Assembly: GCA_014240365.1 (NCBI GenBank)
Contig: JAAZXC010000008.1
Span: 1 to 45,267 of the forward strand
Length of the DNA: 45,267 nt
Source: Acidimicrobiales bacterium
GTDB taxonomy: Bacteria > Actinomycetota > Acidimicrobiia > Acidimicrobiales > MedAcidi-G1
Reading direction: 5' to 3'
Shown here: piece by piece, positions 29,238 to 37,992 of the stretch
Layout: each line of letters begins with the position of its first letter
Position numbering within the stretch: position 1 is the first letter of the stretch
Program-made: the position numbers and the translations under genes
Notes under the pieces: generated by a model
Told to the model about the DNA's origin: nothing
The model's database searches: none
Seen by the model: the letters and a program-made list of their open reading frames with translations, nothing else

Positions 29238-30614
29238 CTAGCGTTTCAAACCCCGATCATCCCCCGAATCCGTCGGATCGGCAAACGGGCCTGCTGACCC
29301 GCCGGTTGGTGCACCGGTACCGGCCGGTCCACCGGTCTCGTCAACCTCAGGCTCAACCTCAGGCTCAACCTCACGGTCCAGCAGGTCGAATGCCCCCCGA
29401 CGACCGGTAACCACCGCATCCACGCACAGCGCCAGCCCCGCACCCAGCACGACCCACCGCAATCCGATCAGGTCGCCGAGGATCCCGAACACCAACCCAC
29501 CGATCGGAATCCCGCTCAGGATCGACACCAGGAACACCGACATCACCCTGCCCCGGAACTCCTCGTCCACCCGGAGCTGGAGGGAGGTACTCAGGGTGGT
29601 GCCATGGAGCATGTGGGCTCCACCCATAAGGAGATACCCGAACATCCCGACACCCAGCCACGACGATGAGGCCACAATCAGGAGGCCCGCCCCGTAGAGG
29701 AGCACGGAACGGCGTTCCAGGACCGCTCGGGACATGCGCCCACCACGACCGCTGATGAAGGCACTCGCCAGCAGGGATCCCACACCGAGGCTCGTGGACA
29801 GGACCCCCAGTCCGCCACCTCCCCTAGCGAACAGGTCATCGGCGATACCGGCGGCCAGCGAGAAGGCGAACACCGCTCCCAGGCCCGCCACGCTGAACGC
29901 CAGACGGAAGGCAATGCGCATCTCCGGCCTCACCCGGACGTACGCCAGCCCCTCGCGGAACTCGTCGCCGATGGACCCTTCGGCCCCGGATGGCGACCAC
30001 GTGGTACGCACGGTTGCCAGAATGGCGAGCCCCACCACGTAGAGGCCCAGTGAAATGGCGAAGGCGAGGCCGGGCCCGTGGAACGCGAGGGTCAACGCTG
30101 CGACGGCGGGGCCCACCGACCGCCCGATCGTGAAGGTGATCGACACCATCCGAACCGCTGCCACCAGCGCCTCACGGGGAACCAGCACAGCCGCCATGGA
30201 CTGGCTCGGCGCCCACTGGAACGAAGCCGCCGAGCCACCTACGAAGTTCAGGAGGAGGATGCGCCACGGGGTCAACCCGCCTGACACGTAGAGGCCGACG
30301 ACCACCGACATGACCAGCACCTGGAGCGACAGGCCTACGAGTAGCAGCACGCGGCGATCTATCCGGTCGGCCAGGGTGCCGGAGAGGGGGGTACCGACCA
30401 CGGCCGGGATGAGCGCCACGAACGACGAGGCCCCAACCCACGTGTTCGAGTCGGTGAGCTGGTTCACCAGGAATGGCGTGGCCAGGCCGCCCAGGAACTG
30501 TGCTGTACCGCAGAGGGTCTGACCGGCTACGAAGCGGGCGAAGGCCGGGTGGCGGAGGGAACTGAACGGGCTGGCGCCGGATGTCTGGCCGGCCGATCCG
30601 GCCTGGTTGGTCAC
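29238..30614 (-). CDS. MFS transporter, EntS-like (MFS_3)
   Basis: Twelve-helix major facilitator, 458 residues, in the group that includes enterobactin exporter EntS and many multidrug exporters. Signatures are FVAGQTLCGTAQFLGG near the start and GTLADRIDRRVLLLVG, the loop 2-3 motif with the conserved D-R-R. The last 45 residues are a hydrophilic tail with the repeated EVEP unit and a Gly/Thr/Pro segment, unusual for the family. The GTG overlaps the YceI stop (GTGA), which implies coupling. Substrate unknown. Confidence 0.9.
   Translation of the reverse strand: MTNQAGSAGQTSGASPFSSLRHPAFARFVAGQTLCGTAQFLGGLATPFLVNQLTDSNTWVGASSFVALIPAVVGTPLSGTLADRIDRRVLLLVGLSLQVLVMSVVVGLYVSGGLTPWRILLLNFVGGSAASFQWAPSQSMAAVLVPREALVAAVRMVSITFTIGRSVGPAVAALTLAFHGPGLAFAISLGLYVVGLAILATVRTTWSPSGAEGSIGDEFREGLAYVRVRPEMRIAFRLAFSVAGLGAVFAFSLAAGIADDLFARGGGGLGVLSTSLGVGSLLASAFISGRGGRMSRAVLERRSVLLYGAGLLIVASSSWLGVGMFGYLLMGGAHMLHGTTLSTSLQLRVDEEFRGRVMSVFLVSILSGIPIGGLVFGILGDLIGLRWVVLGAGLALCVDAVVTGRRGAFDLLDREVEPEVEPEVDETGGPAGTGAPTGGSAGPFADPTDSGDDRGLKR
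29341..29373. repeat. 12-nt tandem repeat in the MFS tail
   Basis: TCAACCTCAGGC occurs twice in tandem with a 9-nt partial third copy. On the coding strand it specifies the EVEPEVEPEVDE tail. Copy number probably varies between strains by slippage. Confidence 0.8.
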
Positions 30615-31471
30615 CTGGTCAGAAACAGTTGGAACTCGACGATGCCGTGGTCCTCAACCGACACCACGATCGACGCACCGGGTGCCTCGATGCCGTGGTC
30701 GGCGAACACGATCGGGAACGAACCGACCACGGTCACCACGTCGCCGACAAGGGTCGCTGCCAGTGTCACATCGACGGGACCGGTCATGCCGTTGATGGTG
30801 ATCGTGCCGGGCACAACGGCATCGACCGACATCCCATCACCATCCAGGTCCCCGAGGGTGACGGGCCCCACTAGGGCGAAGGTGGCCGTCGGATGGTCGT
30901 CGGTGTGCAGTGCACTACGGACCTTCCCGTCCCTGTACACCTTGTCGGACCGTAGGCCCCGCAGATCCGCCGTCACCTCGACGGCCTCTATGGCGTCGTC
31001 GGTGAGCACGACAGACCCGACCACCAGGGGCGTGCGCCCGACTGCTGTGGCGGAGCCGATCCCGTTGCCCAGCACCTCCTGTACCCGGTAGCCGACCCAC
31101 GTGGAGGTGAAGTCGCTGAACGAGCCGATGTCGGTGTCCACCGCCCAGGTCCCCGCCGTGCTGGCCGCAGCAACAGCCGTTGTCGTGGCTGGCACCGTGC
31201 TGGCCGCAGCAGCAGCCGTTGTCGTCGTTGGCGCCGTGGTAGCCACCGGAGCCTGCGTTGTCGTGGTGGTTTCGTACGCGGACGAAGTCGTCGGGTGGGT
31301 GACCGTCGTGCTGGTGGCGGCCGTCGAACCGGTCTGGGCTGCGCTGGCCGTCTCCACAGCCGACGCCAGGTCGGGGGAGGGCGGAGCGGCGGATCGCAGC
31401 AGGAACCACCAGCCGATGACGGCCACCGCCACAACACCGATAACCACCAGAGCCAGCCGTCGCCTATCCAC
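30611..31471 (-). CDS. Membrane-anchored YceI-family protein
   Basis: The family binds polyisoprenoid or other amphiphilic lipids in a lipocalin-like barrel. The 286 residues comprise an N-terminal anchor (about 7-26), an Ala/Thr-rich linker (about 30-107) and a YceI domain from GTWAVDTDIGSFSDFTSTWVGYRV to the end, including LRSDKVYRDGKVRSALHTDDHPTATF. The linker places the barrel away from the membrane, on the outer face. It starts at GTG 31471 behind TAGGGT and leads an operon with an MFS exporter, suggesting a lipid-like cargo. Confidence 0.88.
   Translation of the reverse strand: MDRRRLALVVIGVVAVAVIGWWFLLRSAAPPSPDLASAVETASAAQTGSTAATSTTVTHPTTSSAYETTTTTQAPVATTAPTTTTAAAAASTVPATTTAVAAASTAGTWAVDTDIGSFSDFTSTWVGYRVQEVLGNGIGSATAVGRTPLVVGSVVLTDDAIEAVEVTADLRGLRSDKVYRDGKVRSALHTDDHPTATFALVGPVTLGDLDGDGMSVDAVVPGTITINGMTGPVDVTLAATLVGDVVTVVGSFPIVFADHGIEAPGASIVVSVEDHGIVEFQLFLTR
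31158..31235. repeat. 39-nt tandem duplication in the YceI linker
   Basis: Two copies of a 39-nt unit (31158-31196 and 31197-31235), with a few substitutions, beginning GTGCTGGCCGCAGC. The unit is in frame (13 residues) and extends the Ala/Thr linker. Confidence 0.85.
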
Positions 31472-31537: not shown

Positions 31538-32791
31538 ATGAAGTTCGGATTCTTCTATGAGCACCAGCTGCCCCGCCCCTGGTCGGACGGCGACGAGCAC
31601 CGGCTCCTCAAGGACGCCCTGGACCAGGTCCAGCTGGCTGATCGGCTCGGCTACGACTACGTGTGGGAGGTCGAACACCACTTCCTCGAGGAGTACAGCC
31701 ACAGTTCCGCACCGGAGGTGTTCCTGGCCGCCGCCAGCCAGCGCACGGAGAGGATCCGGCTGGGCCACGGCATCACCCTCCTACCCGGCGCCTACAACCA
31801 CACGGCCCGGGTCGTCGAGCGGATCAACACGCTGGACCTCCTTTCGGACGGACGGGTCGACTTCGGCTCGGGCGAGTCGTCGTCCAACGCCGAACTGGAG
31901 GGCTTCGGCATAGACCGGACCACCAAGCGCGAACAGTGGCTGGACCACATCGAGGCCGCCACCCGGATGATGGTCGAGGAGCCGTTCGCCGGTTGGGACG
32001 GCCCCTGGCTGCAGATGCCCCCGCGCAACGTGGTGCCCAAGCCGTACCAGCGACCGCATCCCCCACTATGGGTGGCCTGCAGCCAGCGCGAGACCATCCA
32101 TCTGGCCGCCCGGAAGGGAATAGGCGCCCTCACCTTCGCCTTCGTGGAGCCCGGCGAGGCCGAACAGTGGGTAGGCGAGTACCACGACATCATCGCCTCG
32201 GAGGAGTGCGTGCCGGCCGGATTCGCCGTCAACCCCAACATCGCCTGCGTCCTGCCGTTCATGTGCCACGAGGACGAGGAGGAGGCCCTGGAGCGCGGCA
32301 TCGACGGCGCCCACTTCTTCGGCTACTCGCTCGGCCACTTCTACGGATTCGGCAATCACCACCCCGGAACCACCGACATCTGGGCTGAGTTCCAGGAGAA
32401 CCGCAGCGCCTTCGGGTTCGACCGCGAGACGGCTTCCCAGACAGCGGTAAGCCTGCGGGCACGCATGGAGAGTGAGGGGCTGCTCTCGCTGAGGGGAGCC
32501 ATCGGCACACCGGACCAGATCCGCCAACTCCTCCGGGAGTACGAGGCCGCCGGCATCGACCAGGTCATCTTCGTGAGCCAGGCGGGACGCAACCGCCACG
32601 AGCACATCTGCGAATCGATGGAGCTCTTCGCCCGCGAGGTCATGGGAGAGTTCGCCGAACGCGACCCGGCCCACGTGGCGGCCAGGGACGAGCGGTTGGC
32701 TGGCGGTGTGGCGGCCGCCCTGGCCAGACGCGAAGGGCCGCGACAGGTGGATCCCGGATATCGGATCCAGCCCCCCACTGCCCAGGCGTGA
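31538..32791 (+). CDS. Luciferase-like monooxygenase (LLM class)
   Basis: Flavin- or F420-dependent TIM-barrel oxidoreductase, 417 residues. It starts MKFGFFYEHQLPRPW, has VWEVEHHFLEEYSHSSAP (the alkanal-monooxygenase-like EHHF), LGHGITLLPGAYNHTARVVERINTLDLLSDGRVDFGSG and, near the end, GTPDQIRQLLREYEAAGIDQVIF. The EHHF group is close to bacterial luciferase alpha and limonene/alkanal monooxygenases, so FMNH2 plus O2 is more likely than F420. The 110-residue C-terminal extension is longer than in minimal LLM proteins. Confidence 0.87.
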   Translation: MKFGFFYEHQLPRPWSDGDEHRLLKDALDQVQLADRLGYDYVWEVEHHFLEEYSHSSAPEVFLAAASQRTERIRLGHGITLLPGAYNHTARVVERINTLDLLSDGRVDFGSGESSSNAELEGFGIDRTTKREQWLDHIEAATRMMVEEPFAGWDGPWLQMPPRNVVPKPYQRPHPPLWVACSQRETIHLAARKGIGALTFAFVEPGEAEQWVGEYHDIIASEECVPAGFAVNPNIACVLPFMCHEDEEEALERGIDGAHFFGYSLGHFYGFGNHHPGTTDIWAEFQENRSAFGFDRETASQTAVSLRARMESEGLLSLRGAIGTPDQIRQLLREYEAAGIDQVIFVSQAGRNRHEHICESMELFAREVMGEFAERDPAHVAARDERLAGGVAAALARREGPRQVDPGYRIQPPTAQA

Positions 32792-32808: not shown

Positions 32809-34221
32809 ATGAACCGACTCTCCGCGGGTGCCGTGATAGCCGCAGTGGCACTGCTGGCATCGTGCGCCGGAGCAGGCACTGACGGACCGGTGGTGGCGCC
32901 ACCAAGCACCAGCACCGTCTCACCGGCCACCACCAGCACAGCTAGCCCGACAAGCGCCGCACCAGCCACCACCGCGCCCCCTCCCACCACGACCACCGCC
33001 GCACCAGCCACCACCGCGCCCCCTCCCACCACAAGCGCTGCCATACCGGCAGATGCCGACACCGGTCGACGTGCCGAGCTTCTCCGGATCCTGGTCGCCG
33101 AGGCTTCGTCCTTCACCCAGGCCGAGGCCGCCTTTCTGCTCCCGCCGACGTTGAACCCGAGCGCCGGTGGCGCCCCCGGCTACACCCGTTACGTGTTCCG
33201 CGAGACGTCCGACGGCGTCATCCCTACCCTGGTCGAGGGTCCCCTGGGTCCACAGACCCGCTGCCAGGACCCGGACCTGCCGTGCTCCTACAGCGACCTC
33301 GTAGAGCTGCTCGCCTCGGGAGAACCGATCCCACCCGAGCTGGACCTGACACCTCAGCGGCTCGCCACGCTCGTGTCCGAGCTGGACCAGCTGGCTGAGT
33401 TCGCCGCACTCCATGCCGACGTGGACGTGACCTGTGCCGAGGGCTTCATCTCCGACTCCATCCAGTCATCCAACATGGGCTCGCACTTCTACCAGCCCGA
33501 CTGGTTCGGCGACGGCTTCGACCCGGGCCGTCCGGAGATCCTCCTCTACGCACCGGCGGACGGGTCGCTCACCACCGGTCCTCTCGGCTACTGCGATGCC
33601 AACGGCTGGAACGGACCGGACCTCGTACTGGTGGGCACCGCCTTCCTCAAGCCGCCAGAGGTAATCGGCTGGGAGCACCCAACGGCATTCACCGGGGACC
33701 TGGACAACTGGCACTCGCACTTCAACATCTGTCGTGGGAACGTAAGCGGCACCGACAGCTTCGTGACCATGGCCGAGTGCGAGGCCTCCGGAGGCAACTG
33801 GCACGACGCCATCGGCTGGATGATCCATGCCTGGGTCGCTCCCGGATACGACAACCAACTCGGTGTGTTCTCGATGTGGAACCCGACCATCGCCCCCACC
33901 GCAGCGCCGTCGGCAATCCATGACCAGAGGGTCGTGCGTGGCAGCGACTTCCCGGAAGGTGCCCACCAGTCCCTGATCGCCAACTTCGCCTTCGAGAGGG
34001 TGATCCGCGTCGCCGTCGGTCAGCACGTGTACTTCAACAACAGCGACTCCGTTCCGCACACCGTGAGCGCCGGCACCGAGGACGCTCCCGACCCGGATGC
34101 CTTCGGATCCGGACTGCTGAATCCGGGAGACAACTACCTGCTGGAGACGTCGTCGGCCGGAACCTTCACCATCTACTGCGCCCTGCATCCCGACATGACA
34201 GCCACCGTGATCGTGGGCTGA
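32809..34221 (+). CDS. Cupredoxin lipoprotein with a His-rich middle domain
   Basis: Exported lipoprotein, 470 residues: lipobox LASC (C19), a Thr/Pro/Ala linker (30-80), an unrecognised middle domain (about 85-365) and a C-terminal cupredoxin (about 372-470). The type 1 copper ligands are present: H417 (VPHTV) and C457, H460, M463 (YCALHPDM). The middle domain carries spaced His/Cys motifs, GSHFYQPDW (H226), NWHSHFNIC (H302, H304, C308) and GWMIHAWVAPG (H340), suggesting a second metal site. It could carry electrons or handle copper at the outer membrane face; no partner oxidase is adjacent. Confidence 0.85.
   Translation: MNRLSAGAVIAAVALLASCAGAGTDGPVVAPPSTSTVSPATTSTASPTSAAPATTAPPPTTTTAAPATTAPPPTTSAAIPADADTGRRAELLRILVAEASSFTQAEAAFLLPPTLNPSAGGAPGYTRYVFRETSDGVIPTLVEGPLGPQTRCQDPDLPCSYSDLVELLASGEPIPPELDLTPQRLATLVSELDQLAEFAALHADVDVTCAEGFISDSIQSSNMGSHFYQPDWFGDGFDPGRPEILLYAPADGSLTTGPLGYCDANGWNGPDLVLVGTAFLKPPEVIGWEHPTAFTGDLDNWHSHFNICRGNVSGTDSFVTMAECEASGGNWHDAIGWMIHAWVAPGYDNQLGVFSMWNPTIAPTAAPSAIHDQRVVRGSDFPEGAHQSLIANFAFERVIRVAVGQHVYFNNSDSVPHTVSAGTEDAPDPDAFGSGLLNPGDNYLLETSSAGTFTIYCALHPDMTATVIVG
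32956..33039. repeat. 42-nt tandem duplication in the cupredoxin linker
   Basis: Two nearly identical 42-nt units (32956-32997 and 32998-33039), beginning GCCGCACCAGCCACC. In frame (14 residues); they lengthen the Thr/Pro/Ala linker. Confidence 0.85.
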
Positions 34222-35924: not shown

Positions 35925-36581
35925 CTAGAAGCCGATAGGCGCCGACAGCACCTCGGCAATCCCGCCGGGGTCTCCGGTCAGCTCGACCCGGGACTGGTCG
36001 CGGCGCCCGAAGAAAAACATCGTCAGCTCACCGGGATCACCGGTGGCGGTCACCTGCCTGGCGCCGGTACGAATGTCCACCGGCTCACCATCCGGACGGG
36101 CGATCGCCAGGGCCACATCCCTGACCTGTCGAGTGCGGAGCTTCGTACCCGACTTCTGGAAGGGCCACAGGGCATCCTGAAGGCCGTCCAGCCCGGTCCG
36201 GGGGGTCCAGCCGTCGGTGGCACGCCTCACGTCCTCCAGGTGGACGAAGAACTCGACGATGTTCATCGGGCCGTCAACCAACCTGAGGAGCCGTGGCGGG
36301 CCTGAACGGATCCGCGCCACCAGACGCTCGAAGGGAAGCCGTTCGGCCGACCGATCAGCGAGGCGCTCGGTTGCCCGCTCCGTGTGGCGGGCGAACGGAC
36401 CCGGCAGCACCAGGCCGAGGCCCACGTCGGGCCGGCGTTCCCGAAGCACCAGATGGGCCGCCATGTGCGCGGCGGTCCAACCCTCGCACAACGTCGGTGC
36501 ATCGGGCCCGACCTCCAGAAGCAGGTCGCAGAGGGCGCCGCGCTCCGCCTGGGCCAGCTGTGCGTTCACACCGGCGCTCAT
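35925..36581 (-). CDS. TIGR03085-like mycothiol-isomerase-fold protein
   Basis: DinB/MDMPI-type four-helix protein, 218 residues. Family landmarks are PTLCEGWTAAHMAAHLVLRERRPD with its metal-ligand-like histidines, and FVHLEDVRRATDGW. Relatives include mycothiol-dependent maleylpyruvate isomerase, and the TIGR03085 branch is largely confined to actinobacteria; its reaction is unknown. The frame is open to 36746, but the family start is at the ATG at 36581, which overlaps the carotenoid oxygenase stop (ATGA). Confidence 0.85.
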   Translation of the reverse strand: MSAGVNAQLAQAERGALCDLLLEVGPDAPTLCEGWTAAHMAAHLVLRERRPDVGLGLVLPGPFARHTERATERLADRSAERLPFERLVARIRSGPPRLLRLVDGPMNIVEFFVHLEDVRRATDGWTPRTGLDGLQDALWPFQKSGTKLRTRQVRDVALAIARPDGEPVDIRTGARQVTATGDPGELTMFFFGRRDQSRVELTGDPGGIAEVLSAPIGF

Positions 36582-37966
36582 ACCGGCGTTCCTACCGGCG
36601 CCACAGTGGTATCGGGCACCCAGGATCCATGGAACCCGTCCGGAACCCTGCGCGGGAGGTGAACCACGGCCACCGGGGGCGCCTCCAGGTCGGCTCCGTC
36701 CAGGATCACGAGGTCCGCCGGTCCGCCGGCCCGGTCGTTGACGCACACCATGATCCAGGCGTCACCCTCAAGACTGGACCCTTCCTTCGGGACCACTATC
36801 GGCTCGGCACCGAACCTGCCGGGCCCGTGATCATGGAGAACTGTCTCACCCGTCTCCACGTCCACCCGGGCGGTCGGTCCCAGCCCCAGACCGGCAGCGG
36901 TGAAGGCGTAGCGATGGCGTCTAGTCCCCACACGCGGGTCATGGGTCGGGAACTCATGGGCGCCATCGGTCAGCGGCGTCTCGACAACCCGACCCGCCAC
37001 CGGATCGACGAGCCAGCGGGCCAGCGTGGGAATCGAGTCGCCGGCCGGCCCCAGCCGGTCACGGTCGAACACCGTGTCGTACCGGCAGACGTCCACGACA
37101 ATGGTGCCGTCCTCGGCGTCATAGGCGTTGACGGGATGGAACACATAGGCCTGCGGCGCCTCGCACCAGACGATGTCGTCAGCAGTACCGGCCCGGGGAA
37201 GCACGCCCACCCTGGCCGCATGGTCGGGGTTCCACGAGAACGGGAACGGCGAACCGCCCATTGCCATTTCCATGTCCAGGCAGACCGGGAGGTCGTAGAC
37301 GAGCACACTCGAGCCGGTGAGCGACATGTCATGCACCATGGGCATCCCCTCGACGGCGATGTCGGTCACCTTCGACACCCGGCCGTCGGGGCCGACCACC
37401 ACGTGCTGCACACGGTCCATGGCCTCCGGATAGGCGTAGCAGACAGCGTGGAGTTCGCCGGTCGCCGGGTCGTACTTCGGATGGGCGGTGAACGCCGCCG
37501 GAAGGGTTCCGTCGAATCCATCGAATCCAATGGTGTCCAGTTCGTAGGTGAGCGTCATCGGAGTGGGGCCAGCCTCGACCATGGCCCAGGTTCGCCCTGC
37601 AAAGCCCCCCACAGAGGTGTTGGGGCCGAAGTCCCGATCTCCGAACGACGTGCCTGCCGGTGCAGTACCGCCGAGGGCCGCCGCGACCCGCGGGCCCCTC
37701 ACCCAGCGGTTGCGGTACCACTCGGCGCGCCCGCCCCGGAGGCGCACACCATGCACCATCCCGTCACCCATGAACCAGTGGTGTGTGGACGGATCAACGT
37801 CACCCAGCGGGTTGGGCCCGTTGCGCAGCCACCGTCCCTCCAGTTCTTCCGGGATGGCCCCCGTCACCGGCAGGTCCGTGGCGGTCACCTCGTCAACCAC
37901 CGGAGCCATGTCCCCCTCCAGATACCGGTTGCCCGCGGCAGTTTCCAGGGTGTCGTCGCTCACCAC
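36578..37966 (-). CDS. Carotenoid cleavage oxygenase family protein
   Basis: Seven-bladed propeller, Fe(II)-dependent dioxygenase of the RPE65/CCD family, about 462 residues, cleaving a carotenoid or stilbene-like double bond. The four iron histidines are expected in FTAHPKYD, MVHDMSLT, AYVFHPVNAY and the C-terminal DGFHGSW. The N-terminus has LEGRWLRNGPNP, the usual entry motif. The start is one of the GTGs at 37981, 37966 or 37963; GGGAGG 5 nt before 37966 favours that one. Carotenoid substrates hint at pigments or retinal use, but no crt or rhodopsin gene is in view. Confidence 0.9.
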   Translation of the reverse strand: MVSDDTLETAAGNRYLEGDMAPVVDEVTATDLPVTGAIPEELEGRWLRNGPNPLGDVDPSTHHWFMGDGMVHGVRLRGGRAEWYRNRWVRGPRVAAALGGTAPAGTSFGDRDFGPNTSVGGFAGRTWAMVEAGPTPMTLTYELDTIGFDGFDGTLPAAFTAHPKYDPATGELHAVCYAYPEAMDRVQHVVVGPDGRVSKVTDIAVEGMPMVHDMSLTGSSVLVYDLPVCLDMEMAMGGSPFPFSWNPDHAARVGVLPRAGTADDIVWCEAPQAYVFHPVNAYDAEDGTIVVDVCRYDTVFDRDRLGPAGDSIPTLARWLVDPVAGRVVETPLTDGAHEFPTHDPRVGTRRHRYAFTAAGLGLGPTARVDVETGETVLHDHGPGRFGAEPIVVPKEGSSLEGDAWIMVCVNDRAGGPADLVILDGADLEAPPVAVVHLPRRVPDGFHGSWVPDTTVAPVGTPV

Positions 37967-37978
37967 GGGAGCCTCCCA

Positions 37979-37992
37979 CACGGGTACCCGTG
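37979..37992. promoter_or_regulatory. 14-bp perfect palindrome
   Basis: CACGGGTACCCGTG lies 12 nt upstream of the favoured carotenoid oxygenase start, in the gap to the divergent MetE-like gene. Candidate operator. Confidence 0.35.

Follow-up and report, generated by a model that had tools for sequence, protein, structure and literature searches.

The gene under study runs from 32809 to 34221 on the forward strand of the window, the whole 45,267-nucleotide stretch of an Acidimicrobiales contig that was analysed here, and its open reading frame encodes a lipoprotein of 470 residues. The original prediction, made from the letters of the DNA, had described a lipobox followed by a mucin-like linker, and both were found: the signal peptide (32809..32865) ends in the lipobox LASC with C19 as the predicted lipidated residue, and a Thr/Pro/Ala-rich stretch covers residues 20-84 (32866..33060). 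This linker is followed by a His-rich middle domain of about 280 residues that has no family name (residues 85-364, 33061..33900) and by a cupredoxin domain (residues 381-470, 33949..34218), which was recognised by its ligands, its fold and sub-threshold profile matches; all of these features are on the forward strand. The three His/Cys motifs announced for the middle domain were all present. GSHFY contains H226 (MGSHF, 33484..33486), NWHSHFNIC contains H302-x-H304 (33712..33720), which falls on a predicted strand of the structure model, as well as C308 (33730..33732), and GWMIHAW contains H340 (WMIHAW, 33826..33828). The alignment also marked H290 (in an HP pair, 33676..33678) and C324 (33778..33780). 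Scans for promoters and terminators found none.

A luciferase-like monooxygenase gene (31538-32791, forward strand; PF00296, 5.1e-47) lies 17 bases upstream of the fusion gene and is possibly co-transcribed with it in this lineage. Beyond it, on the reverse strand, a gene for a YceI-like protein with a hydrophobic N-terminus (30611-31471; PF04264, 5.3e-14, 53.3 bits against a cut-off of 23.7) overlaps by 4 bases a reverse-strand MFS transporter gene (29238..30614; PF05977/PF07690). The luciferase-like gene and the YceI operon named originally as neighbours are thus in place. The YceI and MFS genes are likely one transcription unit, and it is uncertain that the transporter belongs to the system. 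The YceI gene is opposite in strand to the fusion gene with the luciferase-like gene between them, an arrangement that lends no support to co-transcription of the two. The genome, which is 95% complete, has no second YceI match. A carotenoid-oxygenase (RPE65-type) gene was also noted at 36578-37981, ~2.4 kb from the fusion gene; a gene that looks similar by eye (L121:4690-6096) lies beside a stand-alone relative of the middle domain, and the coincidence is probably due to chance. Another gene, L130:3809-5164, resembles the luciferase-like monooxygenase of the window by eye (same N-terminal motifs) and adjoins a stand-alone relative in a different family.

The genome itself and 60 relatives (61 genomes) were searched, and 28 gave a match at E 0.001. 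The match ran over almost the entire region in 23 of these, all within the family of the window (23 of 37 genomes examined there, own included); the other 14 genomes of the family, some of them incomplete, had no match. Across the class, 79 of 296 genomes matched, only ten with long matches (>250 bits), and the remaining matches for the most part covered the final 100-190 residues of the middle domain. When named genomes were scanned, 46 loci were obtained, mostly from marine Acidimicrobiales, including MedAcidi-G1 and MedAcidi-G2B, and also from Ilumatobacter. Five loci bear the label Chloroflexi, Dehalococcoidia or SAR202, and a further one the label Gammaproteobacteria. Alignment A2 (38 rows) combines the fusion protein of the window with 37 of these loci, leaving out nine near-duplicate or truncated loci; L097, whose frame stops early, was included although it has no cupredoxin. 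On the contig titled Gammaproteobacteria (L081), which is possibly misbinned, the fusion gene is Ilumatobacter-like by eye and its product is 58% identical to that of the window in A2. The cupredoxin motif stood behind the middle domain in 45 of the 46 loci, with L097 as the exception. These loci make up a conserved family, in which domain and cupredoxin are a fixed combination.

Linkage to YceI recurred among these loci. YceI, His domain and cupredoxin form a single open frame in eight of the 46, including those of MedAcidi-G1 and of AG-414-N20, which we take from its AG- name to be a single-cell genome; one of the eight frames (L066) runs across an N stretch. The YceI protein of the window is homologous to the N-terminal part of these triple-fusion proteins. 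In 10 more loci, one of them cut by the contig end (L064), YceI is encoded next to the fusion gene on the other strand, which brings the fused and adjacent cases to 18/46 loci, and to 13/30 of those with at least 2.5 kb upstream. It was not found in the other 17 of these 30, including loci labelled Ilumatobacter and Chloroflexi, as judged by a profile built from the YceI of this lineage, which a distant YceI could escape; YceI is therefore not obligatory. The luciferase-like gene was beside the fusion gene in 7/46 loci and an MFS gene was found in 4/46, many of the flanks being short.

The cupredoxin carries the complete H-C-H-M set that had been read from the sequence, with H417 (34057), C457 (34177), H460 (34186) and M463 (34195), all on the forward strand and identified by sequence and alignment. 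The C-x2-H-x2-M spacing of the last three corresponds to an amicyanin-type loop. These ligands were kept in 37-38 of the 38 rows of A2, the exceptions being confined to row L097. Foldseek matched the cupredoxin fold to the purple cupredoxin of Nitrosopumilus (5fc9; E 8.2e-8, TMt 0.80) and to amicyanin (1id2; TMt 0.74), and rows to NirK and N2OR had a TMq of ~0.2, a value consistent with matches through the C-terminal cupredoxin. Profile scores were lower than the respective cut-offs, at 17.6 bits for PF00127 Copper-bind (gathering cut-off 21.2) and 23.4 bits for the amicyanin equivalog TIGR02657 of NCBIfam (curated cut-off 110.2). The domain thus has the fold and the ligands of amicyanin/plastocyanin-type cupredoxins, but the fusion protein differs from these in its sub-threshold scores, in the position of the cupredoxin C-terminal to an unnamed His domain and in its predicted lipid anchor. 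The ligand set and the fold mark the cupredoxin as an electron carrier. Two weak Caballeronia matches, to the cupredoxin part alone, were obtained when plasmids were searched with the fusion protein.

The middle domain matched no Pfam or NCBIfam model, and searches of PDB sequences with it gave nothing usable and no known copper oxidase. Its His/Cys positions were strongly conserved in A2, where H290, H302, H304, C308, C324 and H340 were present in 38/38 rows and H226 in 37/38 (one gap). Relatives of the domain that stand alone were aligned as a second set of 51 (48 loci as well as L108, L193 and L194; rows >110 residues). H226, H302, H304, C308, C324 and H340 were identical in all 51, a count biased towards conservation because these relatives were picked by similarity to the core and nine of them were used in the profile; H290 was not conserved. 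Two further pairs, C152/C159 and C209/C262, were absent from five rows of A2, those of the Chloroflexi-type loci L088 and L094-L097. Against the doubt raised with the original prediction, that the histidines might not be conserved, the His/Cys set was essentially invariant in A2 and in the stand-alone relatives.

AlphaFold2 modelled the folded part (33178-33906) with a pLDDT of 88.9 and a pTM of 0.87 from 38 sequences, and modelling the entire mature protein gave a weaker result (pLDDT 75). H226, H302/H304 and H340 lie on three separate strands in the model, and C308 and C324 are a probable disulfide pair. When the middle-domain model was compared by Foldseek with the PDB and viral models there was no match at E <1, and the PDB comparison gave no cupredoxin-type match. 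The four invariant histidines (226, 302, 304, 340), with the probable disulfide, most likely form a putative second metal site. The predicted metal is most likely copper, which is favoured because of the gene partners.

One set of partners was found beside the stand-alone relatives. In 4/48 loci such a relative immediately precedes a CopC-CopD gene of the same orientation, the two genes overlapping or abutting (L127:5858-8229, L163:3168-5617, L162:2271-5493 and L139:698-3177). The CopC-CopD assignment was confirmed by Pfam in three loci, and the fourth came from a search with a profile made of them; family f44 contributes three of the pairs and family f48 one. A separate cupredoxin gene was sought beside the stand-alone relatives with a profile of our own (E 1e-3), and none was found in the 48 loci; one small neighbour in L122 is cupredoxin-like by eye and has no Pfam match.

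The CopC-CopD pairs favour a role in copper trafficking, in which the His domain would collect copper on the extracellular side and exchange it with the cupredoxin for import or oxidase loading, with no catalysis. The HxH pair on a strand, a common metal motif, fits this role, as do the His-rich linkers seen in several membrane-anchored relatives. The cupredoxin fits it less well, as a full H-C-H-M type 1 site is typical of electron transfer rather than storage. The fusion with YceI also suits redox or lipid work better, and no CopC-CopD gene stood out when neighbours of the fusion gene in the window were scanned with Pfam. Taking both sides together, we consider trafficking a serious competitor that is rather unlikely to be the correct explanation.

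The relatives of the middle domain extend well beyond the fusion family, into a broad superfamily of actinobacterial proteins that has no name. Its core is homologous to short secreted proteins with the motifs MGxHY, LHxWxW and NPxGxF (L116-L119, L181-L192), at an hhalign probability of 99.3 and E 3.5e-20, or a probability of 99.5 with larger sequence sets. The invariant GxH and HxW histidines are common to both. The short proteins differ in having a core of ~130 residues without the HxH and the C308/C324 insertion, and the fused cupredoxin is absent from the rows inspected. Four of these proteins (from L116-L119, L181-L192 and L197) were scanned without a Pfam match and two without an NCBIfam match. 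Further homologues of the core, membrane-anchored or secreted, show the motifs WHxHxGLC and WMxHAW. Family f48 contains up to seven matches per genome to this WHxH/WMxHAW domain (G074, G114 and others), an unnamed expanded family in which several membrane relatives have His-rich linkers. No Pfam family was found above its cut-off in two sets of scanned superfamily representatives (three and five, one of the five with a query sequence that was faulty at its start); one of the three had a sub-threshold match to DUF6247.

Because the short relatives retain the GxHY and HxW histidines without the HxH insertion, part of the His set may serve the fold. The middle domain might then not bind metal at all, its histidines being kept for the sake of the fold, a ligand or a protein contact, with the cupredoxin as the sole holder of metal. 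Several Trp, Gly, Asn, Asp and Phe positions of the domain are just as invariant as the histidines, which agrees with such a role. This explanation accounts poorly for six His/Cys positions that are invariant across all 51 diverged stand-alone relatives and for copper genes as recurrent neighbours, and we regard it as improbable. A catalytic copper or other-metal oxidase or monooxygenase, with oxygen or substrate activated at the four-His site and electrons fed by the cupredoxin in the manner of two-centre copper enzymes, would suit the invariant His set with its tethered electron carrier and the luciferase-like oxygenase gene adjoining in seven loci, but it is very doubtful, as the middle domain has no match to a known copper oxidase by sequence or Foldseek, the sequence has no N-terminal His brace and there is no substrate clue.

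The original prediction had also allowed that the middle domain might turn out to have an established non-metal fold. The sole fold match, to TTHB210 (3vg8), was weak, with a VIA-align Z of 3.0 and an rmsd of 3.9 over 87 residues. The structure paper on TTHB210 is said to call it a 'novel homodecamer'. Five hhalign profile comparisons with TTHB210 (PF18197, DUF5602) were made, and the best, using a profile of the 51 stand-alone relatives and the fusion rows, gave a score of 28.9 at a probability of only 43%; the others gave 5.6 to 36%. As controls for this score, 60 column shuffles reached a maximum of 20.7 and the reversed profile 9.2. With the profile of the short proteins, one shuffle in 60 scored higher than the real comparison, and single-sequence and four-row comparisons with TTHB210 gave no significance. 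PF18197 did not match the fusion protein of the window even at E values as high as 1, or any sequence in a 38-member family scan; it had no match in the genome of the window at E 0.001 and matched 0 of 149 actinobacterial genomes. The register PGxG(H)Y...LlYd...lvG.sY is common to TTHB210-like proteins and the middle domain, to which the fusion family adds an N-terminal region specific to it, a WMxHAW strand and an insertion with WHxHxxLC...C. On balance we lean towards a distant relationship between the middle domain and TTHB210.

TTHB210-like (DUF5602) genes were found in 33 plasmid records, 12 of them from Thermus. In 20 of the 21 non-Thermus records, which are mostly from related Rhizobiales, a plastocyanin-type cupredoxin gene is directly behind the DUF5602 gene. 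The two genes overlap or abut in L174-L178 and L180, which are plasmids of Rhizobium, Roseibium, Microvirga, Sinorhizobium, Paracoccus and Antarctobacter, and all four cupredoxins tested had a Pfam Copper-bind match. The lone exception is a Thioclava nitratireducens plasmid (L179:1507-1842), where the DUF5602 gene lies between two IS6 transposase genes. The DUF5602 gene and a plastocyanin/azurin-type gene are apparently a conserved two-gene unit outside Thermus. None of the 12 Thermus records had such a cupredoxin at E 1e-20, and none is annotated beside TTHB210 in HB8, which argues against a fixed pairing. The alphaproteobacterial TTHB210-like protein and its cupredoxin are two genes, whereas the fusion family has one protein.

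Known YceI systems offer a parallel for the partner of the fusion protein. The passages of PMC9113575 considered here report isoprenoids, including ubiquinone-8, in YceI lipocalins, and more lipid peroxidation in mutants of BcnA (a YceI protein) and of the cytochrome b561 LcoA; the quinone mechanism for BcnA/LcoA is given there as a proposal of its authors. Those of PMC8981238 describe Cbp2D, in which a YceI-like quinone domain is joined to two c-type cytochrome domains. As far as these passages go, a YceI lipocalin is linked or fused to an electron carrier in both cases, as in the fusion family. The carrier is a cytochrome b561 in BcnA-LcoA and a pair of c-type cytochrome domains in Cbp2D, whereas here it is a cupredoxin with a His domain, and the fusion family belongs to a different phylum.

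The explanation that we prefer, tentatively and with somewhat less than even confidence, is a copper-based electron relay at the cell surface that probably has a second metal site made of histidines and a quinone-binding YceI lipocalin as partner, acting perhaps against lipid peroxidation. It is supported by the ligands and fold of the cupredoxin, the invariant set of four His and two Cys, the placement of the histidines on three strands, the YceI linkage and the CopC-CopD and DUF5602-cupredoxin neighbours. The protein would be lipid-anchored and extracytoplasmic, with single electrons carried by the type 1 copper of the cupredoxin. H226, H302, H304 and H340 would be gathered by the middle domain from the three predicted strands and held by the probable C308-C324 disulfide, giving a putative second metal site, most likely for copper. 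The YceI lipocalin, which is one polypeptide with the fusion protein in one lineage, would be the functional partner and may hold an isoprenoid quinone. By analogy with the systems above, the fusion protein would exchange electrons with this YceI-held quinone at the outer face of the membrane, and might pass them between the quinone pool and an external acceptor. A plausible purpose would be to regenerate reduced quinone against lipid peroxyl radicals, or to serve the adjacent oxygenase. The analysis establishes the architecture, the conservation of the ligands and the fusion or adjacency with YceI, whereas we infer the presence of metal in the middle domain, its identity as copper, the quinone as YceI ligand, the direction of electron flow and the antioxidant role. 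The YceI-linked or YceI-fused copper lipoprotein of marine actinobacteria points to an uncharacterised cell-surface redox device.

In the open-licence literature no paper was found that describes the fusion protein, the combination or the middle domain, in keeping with the original remark that this combination is not known as a described family. The same literature yielded none on YceI with cupredoxin or blue copper, on TTHB210, TTHB211 or DUF5602, or on plastocyanin in Acidimicrobiia. The consulted portion of PMC8472277 contains no link of YceI to copper biology, and in the main text of PMC10205998, a paper on the MedAcidi-G1 family, the words copper, plastocyanin, YceI and cupredoxin have 0 occurrences. 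The cupredoxin, YceI and possibly the TTHB210-like fold are of known kinds; the combination and the middle domain are described in none of the libraries and open-licence papers that were searched, and the metal site is possibly new. On a bolder reading, cupredoxin and TTHB210-like His domain would be a recurrent two-metal module, found as a fusion in marine Acidimicrobiia and Chloroflexi-labelled MAGs and as two genes in Alphaproteobacteria, and would define a new class of copper redox proteins outside the cytoplasm. Together with YceI it would give marine actinobacteria a quinone-coupled membrane antioxidant or respiratory side-branch, a monoderm counterpart of BcnA-LcoA. We regard this reading, taken as a whole, as unlikely.

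The fusion protein supplies a first testable context, that of copper redox chemistry tied to YceI lipocalins, for a large superfamily of actinobacterial proteins of which the scanned members match no Pfam family above cut-off and, where scanned, no NCBIfam model. If copper is bound at the four-His site, marine planktonic actinobacteria would possess a copper site of new architecture.
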